From Armatimonas rosea (GTDB lineage: Bacteria; Armatimonadota; Armatimonadia; Armatimonadales; Armatimonadaceae), in assembly GCF_014202505.1 (NCBI RefSeq), contig NZ_JACHGW010000001.1:1364001-1428000 (forward strand): a stretch of 64,000 nt of DNA. The letters are read 5' to 3'. This document shows positions 14,291 to 26,922 of this stretch, piece after piece (positions within the stretch are counted from its first letter, which is position 1; each line of letters starts with the position of its first letter). A program made the position numbers and the translations under genes. Below the pieces are notes generated by a model that saw only the letters and a list, made by a program, of their open reading frames with translations, was not told the origin of the DNA and searched no databases.

Positions 14291-15652
14291 ATGGCCGAGA
14301 TAGTAAAAAGACAGACAACTGTACGCGTCAAGACCCGCCGTCCCGTGGGGATGGTCGCGACCCACCCGCTCCAGCCCTCCCCCGCTGTGGCGGAGCTGGA
14401 GCGACGGGAGCGGCAGCTGGCGGCCCTCTACGAGCTCTGGCGCTCCGCCGCCCACACCGACCTGGAGCGGCTCCTGAAAAATGTCACCGAGCGGGCTGTG
14501 GCGGCACTGGATGCCCACACCGGCTCGGTCTTCCTGCGCGAGCGGGGGACCGATCTGCTGCACATGGTCTCCTCGGTCGGGCTGCCCAACGATGTCTCGG
14601 ACTCTGTCACCCTTCTGGTAGGGGAGCGGATCGCCGGGCGGGTCGCGGAGACACGCCAGCCGATCTTGGTCAACCGCGATCCCCACACCCACCCCCTCCT
14701 CGCCGAGGGCGATATCGCCAAGCGCCCCGAGGTGGAGAGCGCGCTCTGTGCGCCGCTGCTGGGAGTCACCAACGAGGCGCTTGGGGTCCTATGTGTCTCC
14801 CGCCACGCCCCCGCCACCCAGTACACCGAGAGCGACCTGCGGGTCTTCTCCCTCTTTGCCGCCCAAGCCGGGGCCGTGATCGCCCAGCGCCAGACAATCG
14901 ACGATCTCACGCAGGCGGCGAAAGACCAGGCCAAGCTGGAGCGCGAGATGGAGCGCTCACGGGCACTGGCCGCGATGGGGCAGTTCGCTGCGACCATCGC
15001 CCATGAGCTGCGCAACCCGCTCGGCTCGATCAAGGGCGCGGCACAGTTTCTCCTCCAAGACAGCAAAGATGAAACCGTTCGTGATTTTCTGAACATCGTT
15101 GTGGAAGAAGTCAATGGGCTCGGCAAGCTCACCACGGATCTGCTGGAGTTTGCGCGGCCAACCCCGCCTGCACTCTACGAGCACAACCTCGTCGATATTG
15201 TCCGGAGCGAGGTGAGCTTCCTGCGCGAGGAGCTGGCACGCCTTGGCTGCTCCCAGGTGCAGGAGTTTTATAAAATCGACGAAGCCCCGGTGCAGGTGGA
15301 TGCCGCGCAGCTCGGGCGGGCGCTCCGTAACCTGCTGATCAACGCCGCCCAGGCGATGGCCAGTGTCGGAAACACACGCATCGATAGCCGCATCACCCTC
15401 ACCCTAGAGGCGAGAGAGGCGAGCTGGTTGCTCCGTGTCGAGGACAATGGCCCCGGCCTGCCCAGCGATGTGATCGAGCACCTCTGGGAGCCGTTTTTCA
15501 CGACCAAGGCCCGTGGGACGGGCCTAGGGCTGGCGCAGGTACGCAAGACGATCGAGGCACAAGGGGGGACAGTTCGTGCGGAGAACCATGCAGCGGGTGG
15601 CGCGTGCTTTGAGATCTGTCTTCCCCATGCCCAAAAAACTGAGGATCAATAG
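14291..15652 (+). CDS. GAF-domain sensor histidine kinase (NtrB-like)
   Basis: Soluble two-component kinase of 453 residues, with no membrane helix. A GAF domain spans about residues 55-200 (DAHTGSVFLRERGTDLLHM, LVGERIAGRVAETRQPILVN). A coiled linker follows, then the HisKA domain with phospho-acceptor H238 in IAHELRNPLGSIKG. The HATPase domain shows N, G1 and G2 boxes (LLINAAQAM, VEDNGPGLP, GTGLGLAQV). The HELRNPL form and the gene directly downstream, a sigma-54 activator 3 bp away, make it the cognate NtrB-type partner. The GAF ligand is unknown. Confidence 0.92.
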   Translation: MAEIVKRQTTVRVKTRRPVGMVATHPLQPSPAVAELERRERQLAALYELWRSAAHTDLERLLKNVTERAVAALDAHTGSVFLRERGTDLLHMVSSVGLPNDVSDSVTLLVGERIAGRVAETRQPILVNRDPHTHPLLAEGDIAKRPEVESALCAPLLGVTNEALGVLCVSRHAPATQYTESDLRVFSLFAAQAGAVIAQRQTIDDLTQAAKDQAKLEREMERSRALAAMGQFAATIAHELRNPLGSIKGAAQFLLQDSKDETVRDFLNIVVEEVNGLGKLTTDLLEFARPTPPALYEHNLVDIVRSEVSFLREELARLGCSQVQEFYKIDEAPVQVDAAQLGRALRNLLINAAQAMASVGNTRIDSRITLTLEAREASWLLRVEDNGPGLPSDVIEHLWEPFFTTKARGTGLGLAQVRKTIEAQGGTVRAENHAAGGACFEICLPHAQKTEDQ

Positions 15653-15655
15653 AGA

Positions 15656-16990
15656 ATGGCAGCTGAGAACGACGAGATAAAACCCAGCGGCGCGACCGTG
15701 CTGGTCGTGGACGACGAGCCCAACCTGCGGCGTGTCCTATCCGCAGTCCTAGCCCGGGATGGCCACGAGGTCCTCGTGGCCGACGGGGGCCGGGACGCCA
15801 TTCGCAAGGCCAAGGCGCAGCACAAGCTAGACCTGCTGATCACGGACTACCTCATGCCGGACATGAACGGCCTGGAGGTCCTGGAGTCGGTGCGCAAGCA
15901 CCACCCGGGGCTCCGGGCGCTGATTATCTCCGGGCATGGGACCGTGCGCTCCGCGGTCGAGGCGATGCGCCTGGGCGCGTTTGACTTCATTACCAAGCCC
16001 TTTGATGTGGAGCAGGTGCGCGATGCCGTGGACCGTGCCCTCGCCGCAGGCCCCGATGTGAGCCTGGAGGCGATCACCCGCTCCGCCCCCGGGACGGGCA
16101 AGACCGCCTCGGTGCTGGCCAGTGCGCCCAACCCGGCTCCGCTCCCCAGCTTGGTCAATATCCCCAATGTCTCGCTGATCGGCTCCGCACCCGCGACCCA
16201 GAAGATGGCGAGCCAGCTGCTCAAGGCGGCGGGCGCAAGCAAGGCGACCGTCCTCCTGCTAGGGGAGTCTGGGACCGGGAAAGAGGTGGCCGCGCGGCTG
16301 GTCCATGAGGCAAGCCCGCGCAAAAAAGGCCCCTTCATGGCGATCTCCTGCGCCGCTCTCCCCGACACGCTCCTGGAGTCCGAGCTCTTTGGCCACGAGA
16401 AGAGCGCCTTCACCGGTGCCGCCGCGGCCAAGCCCGGAAAGTTCGAGCTCGCCGATGGGGGAACCCTCTTTTTGGATGAGATCGGGGACATTCCGCACCT
16501 GACACAAGTAAAGCTACTGCGGGCCCTGCAAGAGCGGGAGATCTGCCGAATCGGGGGCGTGAAGAACGTCAAGGTGGATGTCCGGGTAGTTGCGGCAACC
16601 AACCGCGATCTCTGGCAGGCGGTTCAAGACGGCAGCTTCCGCCTGGATCTCTACTTCCGGCTGCATGTCGTCCCGGTCTGGCTTCCGCCTCTGCGGGAGC
16701 GCGGCGACGATATCCCGGCGCTGGCACTGCACTTTTTGGAGAAGATCGCGCGCGACAACGGCAAGGCCTTTCCGCTGGGCTTCTCCCCCGAGGCGCTGGC
16801 GTGTCTGGCGCGGCAGCACTGGCCCGGCAATATCCGCGAGCTACAAAATGTCGTGGAGTATGCCGTGGTGATGTCGGCCCCCGATGCGCAACGGATCGAG
16901 CTCGATGCCCTCCCCGAGGCCCTGGTGCAGGAGACGGAGCCCCAGCACCGGCAAGAGGGACAGCCGCAGCTCAAAGTGGTGAACGGATAA
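15656..16990 (+). CDS. Sigma-54 response regulator lacking a DNA-binding domain
   Basis: NtrC-family activator of 444 residues. The receiver domain (about 12-130) has LVVDDEPNL, the phospho-acceptor Asp in LITDYLMPD, SGHGT and KPF. The AAA+ domain has Walker A GESGTGKEVA, Walker B GGTLFLDEIGD, the R-finger region and WPGNIRELQNV. Two oddities are directly visible. The loop that contacts sigma-54 reads SAFTGA, not GAFTGA (S250). The protein also ends about 30 residues after the AAA+ domain in a charged tail with no Fis-type helix-turn-helix. It may activate from solution or need a partner. It lies between the kinase gene and the Wzc-like gene. Confidence 0.9.
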   Translation: MAAENDEIKPSGATVLVVDDEPNLRRVLSAVLARDGHEVLVADGGRDAIRKAKAQHKLDLLITDYLMPDMNGLEVLESVRKHHPGLRALIISGHGTVRSAVEAMRLGAFDFITKPFDVEQVRDAVDRALAAGPDVSLEAITRSAPGTGKTASVLASAPNPAPLPSLVNIPNVSLIGSAPATQKMASQLLKAAGASKATVLLLGESGTGKEVAARLVHEASPRKKGPFMAISCAALPDTLLESELFGHEKSAFTGAAAAKPGKFELADGGTLFLDEIGDIPHLTQVKLLRALQEREICRIGGVKNVKVDVRVVAATNRDLWQAVQDGSFRLDLYFRLHVVPVWLPPLRERGDDIPALALHFLEKIARDNGKAFPLGFSPEALACLARQHWPGNIRELQNVVEYAVVMSAPDAQRIELDALPEALVQETEPQHRQEGQPQLKVVNG

Positions 16991-17000
16991 GAACGAAACA

Positions 17001-20000
17001 ATGGATTTCTGGCGAATCTGGCGGCTGATTAACCGTCGTATCTACCTGGTGATCGGGCTGGCGCTCGTGGCGGCGGTTCTGGTGGTGATTGGGATCTTTA
17101 TCCAGAACCAGCGGGCCGGCGTGGTCGCGGATGCACGCCTCACCCTGCAGCAGGCCGGGCCGAGTGTTGCCATGGGAAACAATGGCGAGACCACAATGGT
17201 GCAGACCGATACGAGCAAGCGTATCTCGGAGCTCGCGACCCAGCTGAGCGGCAACAACAATATCTACACGCAGGCCGCCGAGCTCTTGCGCAAGGACGAA
17301 GAGTCGCGCAAGAAAGAGGTCTATAGCATCCTGGAGCGCAACCAGTACTTCGCGCCCTACGATGCCCAGATCGCCGATAAAGTGAGCCAGCTGGTCAGCG
17401 ATGGCGAGCTCCCCGAGAATCAGCGCGATGCCACGATCGCCGCGCAGCGCCGCAAGTTCCGCCAGGACGAAGTGGCACGCCTCGCCGCCCCCCGCGACCG
17501 CCACGGTGCCTACTTCCCTGAGGGGGTCAAGAAAGAGGCCGGCGAGCTCGCGGATATCTACCGCCAGCAGGTGGATGTCAAGCCCATTATCAGCCTGATG
17601 GACACGGAGAACTCCCGCCAGTTCGACAACCAGATCCAGGTGATGGGCAACTTCCAGCAGGAGAGCGAGGCACTGCTCTACCTGAACATGCTCTCGGTCG
17701 CGTTTCTGGACTACTACGCCACCAACGCCCAGGGTGCCACCCGAGTCGCGATCGCACGGCTGGTCAAGCAGAAAGACGCCGCAGAGCTCGCTCGCCAAGA
17801 TGCGGTTCGGCGGATGGCGGCGTTTAAAAACCAGGACGAGTTCACGGCCCTCTTGGGGCAAGATGTCACCGGCCAGTCCTACCAGACCCTGGAGAGCCGC
17901 ATCTCTGAGCTCAAGGGAATCCGTGATAGCGCCGAGCAGGCCTTCAATGCCGCGGTCGCCAACGCCGCCAGCACGCCCAAGACCATCACGGTGAACCTCC
18001 CCGCCGACGAGAACCTGGAGTACAAGCGCGCCAAGGCCGATGTGGAGAGGCTCTCTGTCGAGGTGCAGCGCCTCTCCGCCACCAAGGGTGAGAGCGACCC
18101 GGAGCTTCTGACGGCACGCGCGGCCCTCACGACAGCACAGGCACAGGCCAAGGCGAACCACAAAAACTTTACCCAGTCGCAGCCCAACCCGAACTACCTC
18201 ACGGCGCAGAACGCTCTGGCGACCGCGCGGGCCAACTTTGAGGGCGCGCGGGCACAGCTTGCCGCACCGGAGGCCCAGTTCCAGAAGCTACGGGTTCGCC
18301 TGGGACGCTCCCCTGCGCTTCAGGCGGAGTACAGCAAGCTCGCTCGGGAGATCGAGGGGCTGGACAAGAACCTGGCCCGGATCAACCAGGAGCTCCAGAG
18401 CGCGACCATGGAGAATATCCAGTCGAGCCGCTCGGGGACGATCCAGATCACACGGGCCTATGTGCTCCCGTCGAAGAATACCTGGGCCAATGGCATCAAG
18501 CTCCTGGTCTACGCCACGACCCTGGCGCTGCTCCTCGGGATTGCGCTGGTGATCGGCCTAGATGCCCTCGACAACTCCGTGCGTACCAAGAAAGACGCCG
18601 AGGATGTCCTGGGGCTGCCCGTGGCGGGAGAGATTCCCGCGCAGCTCCCCGACCCACGGCGCGCCCCGCGGGTCACCTACCTCGACCCGCTCTCGCCCAC
18701 CGCGGAGGCCTACCGGCTGCTGCGCACCGATATCCTTTTTAGCCAGCTGGAGCACCCGTTTAAGTCGCTCCTGATCGCGACAGTCAAGCCGGGCCAGGGC
18801 GCGACCACCACCGCGACCAACCTGGCGATCACGATGGCACAGGCGGGCAAGAAGGTGATCCTGGTCGATGGCGATCTGCGCCACCCCAGCCTGCACCAGG
18901 TCTTCTCGCTCCCCAATGAGAAGGGACTGACCACGCTGCTGGCAGGGACGAGCCAGGCGATCGACGAAGCACTCCAGCGCACCGAGATCGAGTCGCTGCT
19001 CGTGCTGACCTCAGGGCCGCTGCCGCTCAACCCCAGTGAGCTGGTGGGCTCGGCCCAGATGCGCGAGCTCCATGAGCGCCTCAAGGCGGTCGCCGATATC
19101 GTGATTGTCGATGCGCCCTCCGCCATTGCCTTCTCGGACACCTCGGTGCTGGCCTCGTTTGTGGACGCGACCATGTTGGTGATCCGCGCCGGCGATGTCC
19201 CGCGTGGGGCGGTCGAGCAGGTCAAGGGCATGCTCACCAAGGCCCGCGCCAACCTGATCGGGGTCGTCCTCAATGCCGCGCCGAGCGAGAGCGTGGACTC
19301 GGTGCACTACCACAACCAGTACTACCCGCGTCTCAAGGCGGCCGGTGCGATGGGTGGTGTGCCTGACGAGGCGGCCGCAGCCATTGACGAAGAAGATCGC
19401 TTCGAGCAGCTCATGTCCGAGGGCATGGACGACGACGACTACGACGATGAAGACGAGGAGCCCGAGGCACTCGCACCCGCTCCCATGCCGTCGCTCAAGA
19501 ACCCAGGGGTGGGCACGCCTCCCCCGGCGCCTGCTCCGGTTGTGTCGGCTCCTGCCGCTGCTCCGAGTGCGCCTGTGGCCCAGGCCGCACCCATTGTGGT
19601 GGCGGCTCCTGTGGCCCCTGAGCCGAGCACGCCGGTGATGTCGGTTGTCACCGCCCCGGCGCCGGTTGCCGCGCCGGTGGTGGAGTCGCCCCGTGCGGTC
19701 GTGGTCGAGCTACCCCATGCCGTGGCTACTCCCGCAAGGACAACCACGCCTGCTCCGCAGCCGCCTCCGATCACGTTTGCCAGTGCCCCGATGGAGCCGG
19801 CACGCACCCCAGAGCGCGACGAGCCCCTCGAGCCTATCAAGCTCCCAGAGGCTCCCCGGAGTGTCGCCGAGCCACGGAAGACCAACTGGGGAACCTCACC
19901 GATGTCACCCCCGGCTACGCCACCAGAGCCCGTCAAAGAGCCCGTTAAGGACGACAACGAGATCACGTTTGAGTTCGACAGTGACGAGGACGACGAGGAC

Positions 20001-20147
20001 TATCTGGAGGACTTTGACGATGGCTACGACGAGGACTACGACGACGCCGACGAAGATTTTGACGAAGACGATGAAGAAAGTCCACGGCAAAAGAGGAAAA
20101 CGGCAGGCCTGGGTGGAATTCTAGGCTGGTTCAAGCGGGGGCGATAA
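17001..20147 (+). CDS. Wzc-like polysaccharide co-polymerase/tyrosine-kinase homologue with degenerate P-loop
   Basis: Very large inner-membrane protein of 1048 residues; typical Wzc proteins are about 720. Domains in order: cytoplasmic start and TM1 (about 12-35); a long periplasmic coiled-coil region (40-480); TM2 (about 498-518, LLVYATTLALLLGIALVIGL); and a CpsD-like ATPase domain (about 565-780). Walker A' is VILVDGDLRHP (D623) and Walker B is IVIVDAPSA (D704). The P-loop reads PGQGATTT, so the essential lysine is replaced by Ala601. A Pro/Ala-rich linker and an Asp/Glu-rich tail with a few tyrosines follow, ending in a basic KRGR. It starts 10 bp after the sigma-54 regulator. Confidence 0.85.
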   Translation: MDFWRIWRLINRRIYLVIGLALVAAVLVVIGIFIQNQRAGVVADARLTLQQAGPSVAMGNNGETTMVQTDTSKRISELATQLSGNNNIYTQAAELLRKDEESRKKEVYSILERNQYFAPYDAQIADKVSQLVSDGELPENQRDATIAAQRRKFRQDEVARLAAPRDRHGAYFPEGVKKEAGELADIYRQQVDVKPIISLMDTENSRQFDNQIQVMGNFQQESEALLYLNMLSVAFLDYYATNAQGATRVAIARLVKQKDAAELARQDAVRRMAAFKNQDEFTALLGQDVTGQSYQTLESRISELKGIRDSAEQAFNAAVANAASTPKTITVNLPADENLEYKRAKADVERLSVEVQRLSATKGESDPELLTARAALTTAQAQAKANHKNFTQSQPNPNYLTAQNALATARANFEGARAQLAAPEAQFQKLRVRLGRSPALQAEYSKLAREIEGLDKNLARINQELQSATMENIQSSRSGTIQITRAYVLPSKNTWANGIKLLVYATTLALLLGIALVIGLDALDNSVRTKKDAEDVLGLPVAGEIPAQLPDPRRAPRVTYLDPLSPTAEAYRLLRTDILFSQLEHPFKSLLIATVKPGQGATTTATNLAITMAQAGKKVILVDGDLRHPSLHQVFSLPNEKGLTTLLAGTSQAIDEALQRTEIESLLVLTSGPLPLNPSELVGSAQMRELHERLKAVADIVIVDAPSAIAFSDTSVLASFVDATMLVIRAGDVPRGAVEQVKGMLTKARANLIGVVLNAAPSESVDSVHYHNQYYPRLKAAGAMGGVPDEAAAAIDEEDRFEQLMSEGMDDDDYDDEDEEPEALAPAPMPSLKNPGVGTPPPAPAPVVSAPAAAPSAPVAQAAPIVVAAPVAPEPSTPVMSVVTAPAPVAAPVVESPRAVVVELPHAVATPARTTTPAPQPPPITFASAPMEPARTPERDEPLEPIKLPEAPRSVAEPRKTNWGTSPMSPPATPPEPVKEPVKDDNEITFEFDSDEDDEDYLEDFDDGYDEDYDDADEDFDEDDEESPRQKRKTAGLGGILGWFKRGR

Positions 20148-20156
20148 TACTCTCTG

Positions 20157-20180
20157 TGGGGCCGTTTCGACGGCCCCTTT
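20157..20180 (+). terminator. Rho-independent terminator after the Wzc-like gene
   Basis: A GC-rich hairpin, GGGGCCGT-TTCG-ACGGCCCC, with a UUCG-type tetraloop is followed by TTTGTG. It lies 9 bp after the stop codon and just upstream of the pilM promoter. Confidence 0.8.
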
Positions 20181-20191
20181 GTGATTTGTGC

Positions 20192-20221
20192 TTGACATGG
20201 AAAAAGGCAACACCGTATAAT
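20192..20221 (+). promoter_or_regulatory. Canonical sigma-70-type promoter of the pil operon
   Basis: TTGACA (20192-20197), an 18-bp spacer, then TATAAT (20216-20221). The expected transcript begins near 20228 and carries the strong SD AAGGAAGGA before the GTG of pilM, so this gene has a leader, unlike the leaderless group. Confidence 0.8.
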
Positions 20222-24425: not shown

Positions 24426-24482
24426 GCACCAAAATAGACGGTGCATACTGATTTGCGGGGTAAAGCAAGACAGGTAAATAAG

Positions 24483-25139
24483 ATGAACAAAATGCAATTT
24501 TTGGCTCTGACACTCTCTTTAGGCGCAGTGGCTGTCCTCAGCCCGACAAGTGCCTATGCACAGAAGGCCGGGCAGGACATGCCGCGTATCACCATCGACT
24601 TGAAGGATGCAGGTCTCCGTGGTGCTCTTGAGGCGATGTTTAAGCAGGCCAATATCAACAACTATGTTATTGATAACAATGTCGCTGGGTTTGTGACCCT
24701 CAAGATCACGGATCAGCCTTTTGAGAATGCTTTCAAGCTGATCATGCGTGCTTCGAGCATACCACTCACCTACACCAAAGAGAACGATGTCTGGATTGTG
24801 AAGCCTCGTACGGTTACCCAGAATCCGCAGGATCTCGGTGGGACTCCCCCGGAAGATCCGAACCCTGTCCGGCCTCCGGCTGCTTTCGAGCGTATCAACC
24901 TCACCTATCTTGATCCCTTGGATCTTCAGCTTGTCCTTGGTGGCGTGCAGACCATCTCCTTCTTCTCCCGCTTTGGTAACATGGGCGGCATGGGCGGCGG
25001 CATGGGCATGGGCGGCGGCATGGGCATGGGCGGCATGGGCGGCGGCATGATGGGCGGCATGGGCGGCGGCATGATGGGCGGCATGGGCGGCGGCATGATG
25101 GGCGGCGGCATGGGCGGCTTCGGTGGCTTCGGGCGCTAA
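24483..25139 (+). CDS. Short secreted STN-domain protein with Gly-Met-rich tail
   Basis: Exported protein of 218 residues. Signal peptide 1-26 (LALTLSLGAVAVLSPTSAYA, cleaved before QKAG). A single secretin N-terminal-like domain spans about 35-110 (ITIDLKDAGLRGALEAMFKQ, ITDQPFENAFKLIMRASSIP, VWIVKPRT). A second short segment resembles the start of an N1 domain (ERINLTYLDPLDLQLVL). There is no secretin barrel. The C-terminal 50 residues are almost only Gly and Met, encoded by 24-bp tandem repeats. Next to pilQ, it may be a separately encoded accessory or N0 domain for the secretin. Confidence 0.7.
   Translation: MNKMQFLALTLSLGAVAVLSPTSAYAQKAGQDMPRITIDLKDAGLRGALEAMFKQANINNYVIDNNVAGFVTLKITDQPFENAFKLIMRASSIPLTYTKENDVWIVKPRTVTQNPQDLGGTPPEDPNPVRPPAAFERINLTYLDPLDLQLVLGGVQTISFFSRFGNMGGMGGGMGMGGGMGMGGMGGGMMGGMGGGMMGGMGGGMMGGGMGGFGGFGR
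25026..25097 (+). repeat. Three perfect 24-bp tandem repeats
   Basis: Three exact copies of a 24-bp unit starting ATGGGCGGCATGGGC, encoding MGGMGGGM, within a larger Gly-Met-rich block (24979-25122). Likely prone to slippage in multiples of 24 bp without frameshift. Confidence 0.85.
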
Positions 25140-25155
25140 CCTTCGTGCTTGTTCG

Positions 25156-25217
25156 TTAATGAGCCTTTCCCTTAATGAGCTCAAGGTGGTTTTCCAGGGG
25201 TAAGTAATTACCCCTGG
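25156..25217 (+). promoter_or_regulatory. pilQ leader: direct repeats and strong stem-loop
   Basis: TTAATGAGC occurs at 25156-25164 and 25172-25180, 16 bp apart. It is followed by a stem-loop with perfect 10-bp arms CCAGGGGTAA/TTACCCCTGG around GTAA (25194-25217). No T-run follows, so a simple terminator is unlikely. It may be a processing or protein-binding site between the STN gene and pilQ. Confidence 0.5.
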
Positions 25218-25275
25218 CAGTGCTCCTAATAAATCAGGCTAAGGCCGGAGTACTGCTGAAATTTGGAGGATATGT

Positions 25276-26922
25276 ATGCAAAATTCCTGGCGACGGAGCG
25301 CTTTGCTAACGGTATGTGCGCTTTCGATTCCCCTGGCTACAACTGTAACTACGGCTCGAGCACAGACAACCACGGGCAAAGATGTCACAAAGAACATCGA
25401 TGTCAATCTCCGGAATGCACGTCTGGAAGATGCAGTCGTGGTCTTGACCCAGCAGAGTGGGCTGGAGAATGTCGTTATCATTCCGGGTAAGTACCAGAAT
25501 GTGACGATCAAGCTGACTGATAAGGGCGTCGAGGCGACGTTGCGGGCGATTGCCAAGGCTGCGGGAGCTACGGTTGAAGAGAGCGATGGTATCTACTATC
25601 TCCGCCCTGCGGGGACTGAAGTGCCTGTTGAGAAGAAGCCTGAGGCTGCTCCTGTTGTCGTACCGGCTGCACCCGTTCGCGGTAAGTCACAGCTTACTAA
25701 GATCGAGCTGAAGTACCTTCCCCCCTCTGACTTTGTCAAGATGCTGGATGACCCGACCTACAACTATATTGTTAGTAAGATGGTTATTCCGGAGGCAATG
25801 GCAGCAAACAAGAACTCCCAGCCTGTTGGGCCTCCCAATGTGTCGCTGATGGAGTCCGATAAGAAGCCTGTCACGGGTCTTCCCACAGAGGGTTCTGGAA
25901 CCGGTGCTCTGGGTGCTGGTCAGCGTGGCGGCGGCTTCGGCGGCGGTGGCTTTGGTGGCGGCGGCTTCGGTGGCCGAGGACCCCAGGGTGGTGGTGCTGG
26001 CTTTGGCCAAGGTGGACTTGGTCAGGGTGGGCTGGGCCAAGGTGGTCCTGGTGGCGCTAATGGACAACAGCAGCGCTCTCTGCGACCTCCAGGGATCGAT
26101 AACATCCTCTCCAGCGATGCCGATAACACGCTGATTGTTCAGGGTGACCCCGCTGATATCGATGAGCTCAAGGCGCTGATTCGTCTTCTTGATGTGGCTC
26201 CTAAGCAGGTGGAGATTCGTGCTGAGTTTGTGACCGTGAATATGCAGGATATCGAGAACTTCGGTATTCAGTGGCAGTTCAGCCCGGCCAACAACCTCGA
26301 TCTGAGCATGGCACCTGCGGCGGGAAGCTCGCCCACGATGACGGTTGCCTATGCATCGGGTAATGCAGTCGCGAACCTGCGGGCAGCCTATGTCAAGCAG
26401 ACCAATAACGTCCTGCAAGCACCTATCATCAGCACCTCGAACAATACACCTGCATCGGTGTTTGTGACCGACCTTGCTTACATCCAGCAGTCGACGGTTA
26501 TCCAGCCGCCGTTTGGTGGACAGCCGGTGGTTGCGAATCAGCTGTTCCCGATCTCGTCGAGCAACTTCTTTAGCGTGACCCCGCATATCAACGGCGACGG
26601 CACGATTAGTATGCTCCTGACACCACAGCTGCAGTCCTTCACCTCGGCTATCACCTCAGGGACACCCCCACGGCAGACGACCCAAGGTGTGATGACCTTC
26701 CGGCGTATCAAGAGTGGTGACACCATGATGCTCGGTGGCTTTATCACCAAGCAGGAAGATGGCGGCGAGATTCGCATGCCTCTGCTGGGAAGCCTCCCGA
26801 TCATTGGAGATCTGTTCAAGCAGAAATCCAAGACCGTGACCGGTGTTGAGACTCTGATCTTTGTAACTCCCCGAATCATCGAGGAGACCAACACAGGAGC
26901 GGGTTCCGGTAGCAACCTCTAA
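25276..26922 (+). CDS. pilQ: Type IV pilus secretin PilQ
   Basis: Outer-membrane secretin of 548 residues forming the pilus exit pore. Signal peptide 1-31 (ending TTVTTARAQ). N0/STN domain about 35-115 (NIDVNLRNARLEDAVVVLTQ, DGIYYLRPAG). An N1-like part is interrupted by a Gly-rich stretch (210-265). A typical segment DADNTLIVQGDPADIDELKA follows, then the C-terminal secretin barrel with MTFRRIKSGDTMMLGGFI and LPIIGDLFKQKSKTVTGVET, ending LIFVTPRIIEE. It is shorter than proteobacterial PilQ because AMIN domains are missing. SD GGAGG precedes the ATG. A strong terminator follows. Confidence 0.92.
   Translation: MQNSWRRSALLTVCALSIPLATTVTTARAQTTTGKDVTKNIDVNLRNARLEDAVVVLTQQSGLENVVIIPGKYQNVTIKLTDKGVEATLRAIAKAAGATVEESDGIYYLRPAGTEVPVEKKPEAAPVVVPAAPVRGKSQLTKIELKYLPPSDFVKMLDDPTYNYIVSKMVIPEAMAANKNSQPVGPPNVSLMESDKKPVTGLPTEGSGTGALGAGQRGGGFGGGGFGGGGFGGRGPQGGGAGFGQGGLGQGGLGQGGPGGANGQQQRSLRPPGIDNILSSDADNTLIVQGDPADIDELKALIRLLDVAPKQVEIRAEFVTVNMQDIENFGIQWQFSPANNLDLSMAPAAGSSPTMTVAYASGNAVANLRAAYVKQTNNVLQAPIISTSNNTPASVFVTDLAYIQQSTVIQPPFGGQPVVANQLFPISSSNFFSVTPHINGDGTISMLLTPQLQSFTSAITSGTPPRQTTQGVMTFRRIKSGDTMMLGGFITKQEDGGEIRMPLLGSLPIIGDLFKQKSKTVTGVETLIFVTPRIIEETNTGAGSGSNL

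Follow-up and report, generated by a model that had tools for sequence, protein, structure and literature searches.

The Wzc-like gene and its surroundings

The window, that is, the whole 64,000-nucleotide stretch of Armatimonas rosea DNA that was analysed, carries a gene for a Wzc-like protein, probably of the PCP-2a type, with two regulatory genes upstream and a pilM gene downstream (Table 1).

Table 1. Positions of the genes, protein segments and signals in the window
Feature	Position	Strand	Basis or remark
GAF histidine kinase gene	14291..15652	+	upstream, co-directional; same order in family-f1 loci L116, L117, L147, L148
NtrC-type response regulator gene	15656..16990	+	10 bp before the Wzc-like gene
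Wzc-like (PCP-2a) gene	17001..20147	+	1048 aa, stop included
First predicted transmembrane helix, residues 14-35	17040..17105	+	hydrophobic stretch; AlphaFold pLDDT only about 52-64
Predicted periplasmic co-polymerase part, residues 36-493	17106..18479	+	long helices, small alpha/beta base; AlphaFold
Second predicted transmembrane helix and cytoplasmic start, residues 494-523	18480..18569	+	hydrophobic stretch; helix 494-523 in the AlphaFold model
BY-kinase-like domain, residues 524-763	18570..19289	+	AlphaFold and structure matches
EX2RX2R ring-interface motif EAYRLLR, residues 569-575	18705..18725	+	sequence; E569, R572, R575
Lys596, P-loop position 2	18786..18788	+	basic residue typical of the clade
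Deviant Walker A KPGQGATT, residues 596-603	18786..18809	+	
GCG codon for Ala601, which replaces the Walker A lysine	18801..18803	+	alignment to CapB
Walker A' ILVDGDLRHP, residues 620-629	18858..18887	+	D623, D625, R627
Walker B IVIVDAPSAIAFSD, residues 700-713	19098..19139	+	D704, D713
Short conserved tail DSVHYHNQYYP, residues 766-776	19296..19328	+	at the place of the BY-kinase poly-Tyr cluster
Genus-specific C-terminal extension	19329..20144	+	Pro/Ala-rich linker, then acidic tail with Tyr
Terminator-like hairpin directly 3' of the Wzc-like gene	20158..20177	+	similar hairpin in G001 (L138)
Perfect sigma-70 consensus promoter TTGACA-18-TATAAT before pilM	20192..20221	+	12/12; also in G001

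Residues 569-772 scored 177.5 bits against the TIGR01007 profile, above the cut-off of 108.05, which places the protein in the BY-kinase family. The chain-length determinant profile TIGR03007 gave 54.5 bits over residues 267-547, a score below its cut-off. A homologue in the same genus (genome G001) is 62% identical over the full length. The C-terminal extension is 41% identical in the two proteins over the aligned part, and its distant acidic, tyrosine-bearing tail is present only in this genus.

The cytoplasmic domain (residues 502-790) was modelled with AlphaFold using an alignment of the window protein and 19 related loci, with a mean pLDDT of 88.7 and a pTM of 0.83. The best solved matches of the model in Foldseek and VIA-align were CapAB and Wzc (CapAB 3bfv, E 2.6e-26; 4jlv, Z 37.4 and rmsd 1.1 over 228 residues), indicating that the predicted fold is that of a BY-kinase. 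The ParA/MinD proteins came far below, with Z about 17. The longer model, of residues 1-790, showed the Wzc-like layout of two hydrophobic helices flanking a long-helix region. Since its pTM was 0.39, and the best whole-chain Foldseek match, Wzc (E 6e-25), had a TM score of only about 0.35-0.5, the periplasmic part is supported by the model rather than settled.

A regulator with receiver and sigma-54 AAA domains lies directly upstream in all five of the other loci of f1, the family of the window gene, with upstream sequence (L116, L117, L138, L147 and L148), and the histidine kinase was seen in the four f1 loci that extend far enough. Pfam reported receiver, sigma-54 AAA and lid domains in the window's regulator and no helix-turn-helix; DNA binding by this regulator, if any, may therefore be unusual. 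Downstream of the Wzc-like gene are pilM, pilN/pilO-like ORFs and a secretin gene, and the order of pilM and secretin was found only in the window genus (the window and G001). The region 24441-26922 contains two adjacent ORFs matching STN, a Gly/Met-rich one of 232 aa and then the full secretin. In the window and in G001 alike, the hairpin and the perfect promoter stand between the Wzc-like gene and pilM; the histidine kinase, the regulator and the Wzc-like protein therefore likely constitute one unit, and pilM opens a new one.

Family f1 has the gene outside exopolysaccharide clusters. No exopolysaccharide genes adjoin the window gene, and none of the five Poly_export genes of the genome is nearby, so a co-polymerase role at this locus would follow from homology only. 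At five representative loci outside f1 (L115, L118, L124, L136 and L140), the gene stands among exopolysaccharide genes in varying combinations: sugar transferase, exosortase, DUF3485, Poly_export, flippase, Wzy_C, glycosyltransferase, deacetylase and ABC2/Wzt.

A lineage without the Walker A lysine

Bases 18783-18815 encode residues 595-605, VKPGQGATTTA, in which Ala601 aligns with the Walker A lysine of CapB; the catalytic lysine of CapB is K55 (PMC3795738). The original prediction was thus confirmed: this lysine is replaced, while Walker A' persists as VDGDLRHP (622-629) and Walker B as IVIVDAPSA (700-708). D713 is present as well. It had presented the loss as a feature of a single protein, and in this respect it must be revised: the loss is the lineage-wide state of a clade of 40 members. 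The expectation of an inactive or unconventional ATPase in an otherwise full-length co-polymerase fits the sequence evidence. The rest of the protein is not simply normal, however, for the lysine loss is accompanied by Lys or Arg at 596 and by a shortened tyrosine tail. The prediction also overlooked Lys596, the EX2RX2R motif and the fixed HYHNQYYP tail that replaces the poly-Tyr cluster.

The phylum was searched in 41 Armatimonadota genomes at first and then in 291 with a family profile, and 188 unique BY-kinase-like domains were typed at positions 596 and 601. The clade holding the window protein received a support of 95 (SH-aLRT) in a tree of 137 rows and of 94 in one of 186 rows, with all 40 members together. 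The duplicate L001 was removed before the counts, and the degenerate L033_5108 and the interrupted L155 were left out of both trees. None of the 40 members has Lys601; lysine-bearing orthologues, the finding that would have spoken for a sequencing error or a strain-specific mutation, were thus not encountered. These explanations are ruled out, since Ala or Gly occupies position 601 in 35 unique domains from 35 Armatimonadota genomes, all within the clade. The identical KPGQGATTT in G001, together with these 35 genomes, shows that the deviation is due neither to chance nor to error.

The residues at the two positions varied together. Among the 94 rows with Lys601, position 596 was K or R in 3 and E in 2. 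Where 601 was small or uncharged (A, G, S, N, T or V; 45 rows), K/R596 was found in 40, and where it was Ala or Gly, in 34 of 35. When 601 was Arg (49 rows, a count that covers 19 of the 24 weaker Arg-type genomes), position 596 was E or D in 46. Of the 40 clade members, 21 have K at 596, 17 R, one M and one S, so that 38 are basic there. These counts are of unique domains, not of independent events. A 76-row tree placed the non-Lys rows as one change with support of 95/81. The Arg601 rows grouped with a support of 99 when there were 21 of them (137-row tree), but of only 26 with 49 (186-row tree), so that their grouping is less sure in the larger tree. The charge swap goes back to very few independent origins, and it is its retention that suggests selection on charge.

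Several members depart from the pattern. Four clade members of the S/N type form a long-branch subgroup, L146 has Thr601 without a basic 596, and L133, a clade member, has Met596 beside Arg relatives. Rows lacking Lys601 were also found outside the clade (L275, L278, L289, L033_5108 and the interrupted L155). In two of these, L278 (G196) and L289 (G029), the lysine is replaced by Val or Asn (GEGVTF and GSGNST).

The Arg601 lineage, a sister of the window's clade, has also lost EX2RX2R (L151, L177, L181, L182, L192, L193, L195, L202-L204, L209, L211-L213, L215, L217-L219, L221, L222, L225, L237, L242, L243, L246, L247, L249, L253-L255 and L256-L274). An obligate pairing of the two deviant lineages was considered and rejected, the Arg type being present in 19 of the 35 genomes with the A/G type (hand count). 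Similarly, there is no clean gap in E-value between lysine-less and lysine-bearing proteins: the lysine-bearing G216 at 2.8e-80 stands beside G010 and G005 at about 1e-80.

All members of both deviant lineages come from one phylum, in a sample that reached other phyla through 22 of the 23 loci of one set (the remaining one, L031, is from Armatimonadota). Most genomes are in many contigs. A DNA motif-pattern search gave 37 places in 35 of the 291 genomes, against about 27 matches for the reversed-pattern control (hand count), and 21 of the 30 loci inspected were the Wzc-like gene; profile searches were employed instead.

Conservation of the pocket, the charge and the tail

Purifying selection has preserved the fold and most of the P-loop, along with the Walker aspartates and the ring-interface motif. 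Between the window and G001, dN/dS was approximately 0.07 for the kinase domain and 0.03 for residues 590-640, the strongest purifying selection among the stretches compared (both values are approximate, as dS exceeds 1). The pocket is near-invariant across the 40 members, although the most distant are only about 27% identical to the window protein: G600, N607, D623, R627 and D704 are conserved in all 40, D713 in 39 and D625 in 36. Of the marks of a catalytic BY-kinase, the window protein retains the four aspartates D623, D625, D704 and D713 and lacks the Walker A lysine and the poly-Tyr cluster. In the ring-interface motif, whose role has been described (PMC3795738), E569 and R/K572 are present in all 40 members and R575 in 26. 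Gln599, in place of the Glu of PGEGK, occurs in 38, and Ser707, where canonical Walker B has PP, in 37.

Residue 596 is position 2 of the P-loop, which we take to be the place of the ParA/MinD "signature" lysine; this position adjoins the amine of the Walker lysine. Within the clade there were 5 letter changes at 596, of which 3 keep the charge and 2 lose it, and in the lysine-bearing rows 37 letter changes with 4 changes of charge state. It appears, then, that the charge is held at 596 and the letter is not. The simplest physical reading is that P-loop positions 2 and 7 share one charge site, so that position 2 would be neutral when position 7 is Lys, basic when it is small and acidic when it is Arg. 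This exclusivity has exceptions in L032, L290, L291 and S. aureus CapB1 (4jlv), which has both lysines. Since a basic 596 can stand beside the lysine, as in L032 and CapB1, it is not strictly a substitute.

The clade carries a tail like VDSxxYHxxYYP in place of poly-Tyr runs such as YYYYYYYY, and Y774 and Y775 are conserved in at least 90% of the 33 sequences of set A3. L152, L166 and L168 bear the lysine, group with the deviant lineages and already have a short VDSYRY..YY tail; the tyrosine cluster was therefore probably lost before the lysine.

Other BY-kinase-like genes of the same genomes were also surveyed, in 41 genomes chosen since nearly all carry deviant proteins. No lysine-bearing BY-kinase above the TIGR01007 cut-off was found in 18 of them (G001, G004, G026, G029, G037, G087, G177, G196, G203, G225, G226, G230, G233, G234, G235, G236, G238 and G244), a hand count in which lysine-bearing matches below the cut-off are uncounted. 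Of these assemblies, G203 and G177 consist of one contig each; completeness is just 80% for G004, and contamination amounts to 6-9% in G029, G230 and G244. In G087 and G177 the Arg type alone is present, as the sole match above the cut-off. The window's genome has a canonical kinase (GEGKST) adjoining a Poly_export gene.

That genome holds two further unusual genes. L155:8436-11795 (minus strand; contig C5, about 264.9-268.3 kb) is a second lysine-less Wzc-like gene, KAEQGSTTT, with Ser601 and Lys596, broken close to its Walker B motif by roughly 1 kb of inserted DNA in which two opposite-strand ORFs resemble, by eye, a split transposase; the gene that follows resembles, again by eye, a sugar transferase. 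L156 (contig C3, about 799.7-800.4 kb), which is outside the trees, encodes an 818-aa BY-kinase-like protein with the P-loop REGEGRSS, where Arg replaces Lys.

Possible function and comparison with known systems

The reading that we find the most convincing, with moderate confidence, is that the protein is a fused PCP-2a (Wzc-type) co-polymerase with a conserved, nucleotide-holding BY pseudokinase as its cytoplasmic domain. The domain would still form a ring and probably still hold Mg-nucleotide, and the tail of each subunit would dock in its neighbour's pocket like a clamp. Lacking the lysine and the poly-Tyr tail, it would not pass through the Wzc cycle of repeated tyrosine phosphorylation and ring break-up; the stability of the ring would depend instead on whether nucleotide is bound or released, or on partner proteins, and K/R596 may supply the positive charge that keeps the phosphates or the docked tail in place. 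Once its tail has been phosphorylated four times, the Wzc ring falls apart, to be re-formed with the help of the phosphatase, while K540M stays octameric (PMC11986026 and PMC12881504). PDB titles list Wzc K540M forms with MgADP. By analogy with the stable K540M octamer, a natural lysine-less Wzc should assemble into rings and may hold nucleotide, but should not break up its ring by self-phosphorylation. Against this reading, the near-invariant YY of the tail and the complete Walker A' and B exceed the needs of a pure scaffold, a basic 596 co-occurs with the lysine in L032 and CapB1, the S/N types are on a long branch, and L146 has no basic 596.

The possibility was considered that the enzyme has relocated its lysine, K/R596 taking over phosphate contact in a working ATPase or in a tyrosine kinase that acts on the YY of the neighbouring tail. 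This would agree with the gain of an interchangeable K or R at 596 where 601 is Ala or Gly, with the retained Walker aspartates and tail YY and with the strong selection on residues 590-640, and there is a precedent in the WNK kinases, where the lysine comes from another strand; they have another fold and are described as active with a lysine supplied from elsewhere (PMC4718504). However, the exchange of K and R is easier to reconcile with a role for charge than with exact catalysis, the poly-Tyr tail that would be the substrate is lost, and Met596 occurs in L133 beside Arg relatives; we consider such an enzyme possible but unlikely. A bolder version, which is offered only tentatively and is equally doubtful, is that two related lineages rewired the P-loop by charge exchange at positions 2 and 7, from an ancestral (neutral, K), one arriving at (K/R, A/G) and the other at (E/D, R). 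In the first, the relocated basic residue would keep up ATP turnover or tyrosine transfer to the neighbour's YY, and in the second an internal Glu-Arg pair would shut the phosphate site. If this were true, exopolysaccharide rings would run on a Walker ATPase without the Walker lysine.

Conversely, the domain may be a pure scaffold of the EcpK type without nucleotide binding, its retained motifs reflecting constraints of the fold. EcpK is essential for exopolysaccharide though it has no Walker motifs, HfsB is grouped with it, and fused pseudokinase forms are mentioned, all in the available text of PMC12004946. But EcpK has lost all three Walker motifs and the tyrosine tail, whereas here the losses are confined to the lysine and the poly-Tyr run and the pocket is near-invariant down to the most divergent members, which makes a pure scaffold improbable. 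The canonical kinase in the window's genome raised the question of a hetero-oligomer in which the lysine-less chain regulates a canonical BY-kinase of the same cell. The 18 of 41 chosen genomes with no lysine-bearing match over the cut-off, including the single-contig G203 and G177 (the latter with the Arg type only), argue against it, and it is very improbable. A part in a type IV pilus machine was suggested by the gene order in the window and G001; it is scarcely credible and was dropped, in view of the terminator and promoter before pilM in both genomes and of a search, seeded with the window's PilM, that found no PilM in the stretches around the other loci.

According to the standard model, PCP-2 rings cycle by tyrosine autophosphorylation. 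If the pseudokinase reading is correct, this lineage would do without that cycle and yet keep a nucleotide pocket, and in some genomes its members, with their Arg-type relatives, are apparently the sole PCP-2 proteins. With such natural proteins, the contribution of nucleotide binding to exopolysaccharide export could be told apart from that of phosphotransfer, and nature offers in them a test of whether moving the basic residue leaves a P-loop able to work. A charge-swapped P-loop was not described in the literature searched, a weak negative as most subscription papers lay outside that search.

The protein resembles E. coli Wzc and S. aureus CapAB in its predicted fold, Walker A' and B and EX2RX2R, and its predicted fused layout is like that of Wzc. 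Unlike them, it lacks the Walker A lysine, has Lys at P-loop position 2, Gln for the Glu of PGEGK and PS for PP in Walker B, and ends its kinase domain in a short fixed tail instead of a poly-Tyr tail. Like the ParA/MinD deviant Walker A ATPases, it carries a lysine at P-loop position 2, five residues ahead of where the Walker A lysine would stand. These ATPases keep both lysines (KGGxGK[ST]), whereas KPGQGAT carries the first only, and the fold match to them is clearly weaker than to the BY-kinases. With the WNK kinases there is an analogy only, in that the catalytic lysine is missing and a lysine is found elsewhere at the nucleotide site; the fold is unrelated, and the WNK lysine is known to work while the role of K596 is a proposed one.

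BY pseudokinases are established, and EcpK is proposed to act by binding (PMC12004946). The window protein shares with EcpK of Myxococcus xanthus and HfsB of Caulobacter a BY-kinase fold and, as homology suggests, a place in an exopolysaccharide system in the absence of catalytic residues; unlike EcpK, a separate protein with neither Walker motifs nor tail tyrosines, it is fused and retains Walker A' and B, its losses being limited to the lysine and the poly-Tyr cluster. Fused PCP-2 pseudokinases have also been noted, such as SMc01795 and others after Cuthbertson et al. (PMC12004946). The window protein is like SMc01795 and Rhizobium PssP2 in combining a co-polymerase part, here a predicted one, and an inactive-looking kinase domain in a single chain. 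PssP2 differs in that it is described as having neither Walker A, A' and B nor the Y-cluster, and a charge swap is not part of its description in the available text of PMC4182512. The distinguishing mark of the present lineage, as judged from the sequences, is that nearly the whole pocket is kept except the lysine, and the charge has moved.
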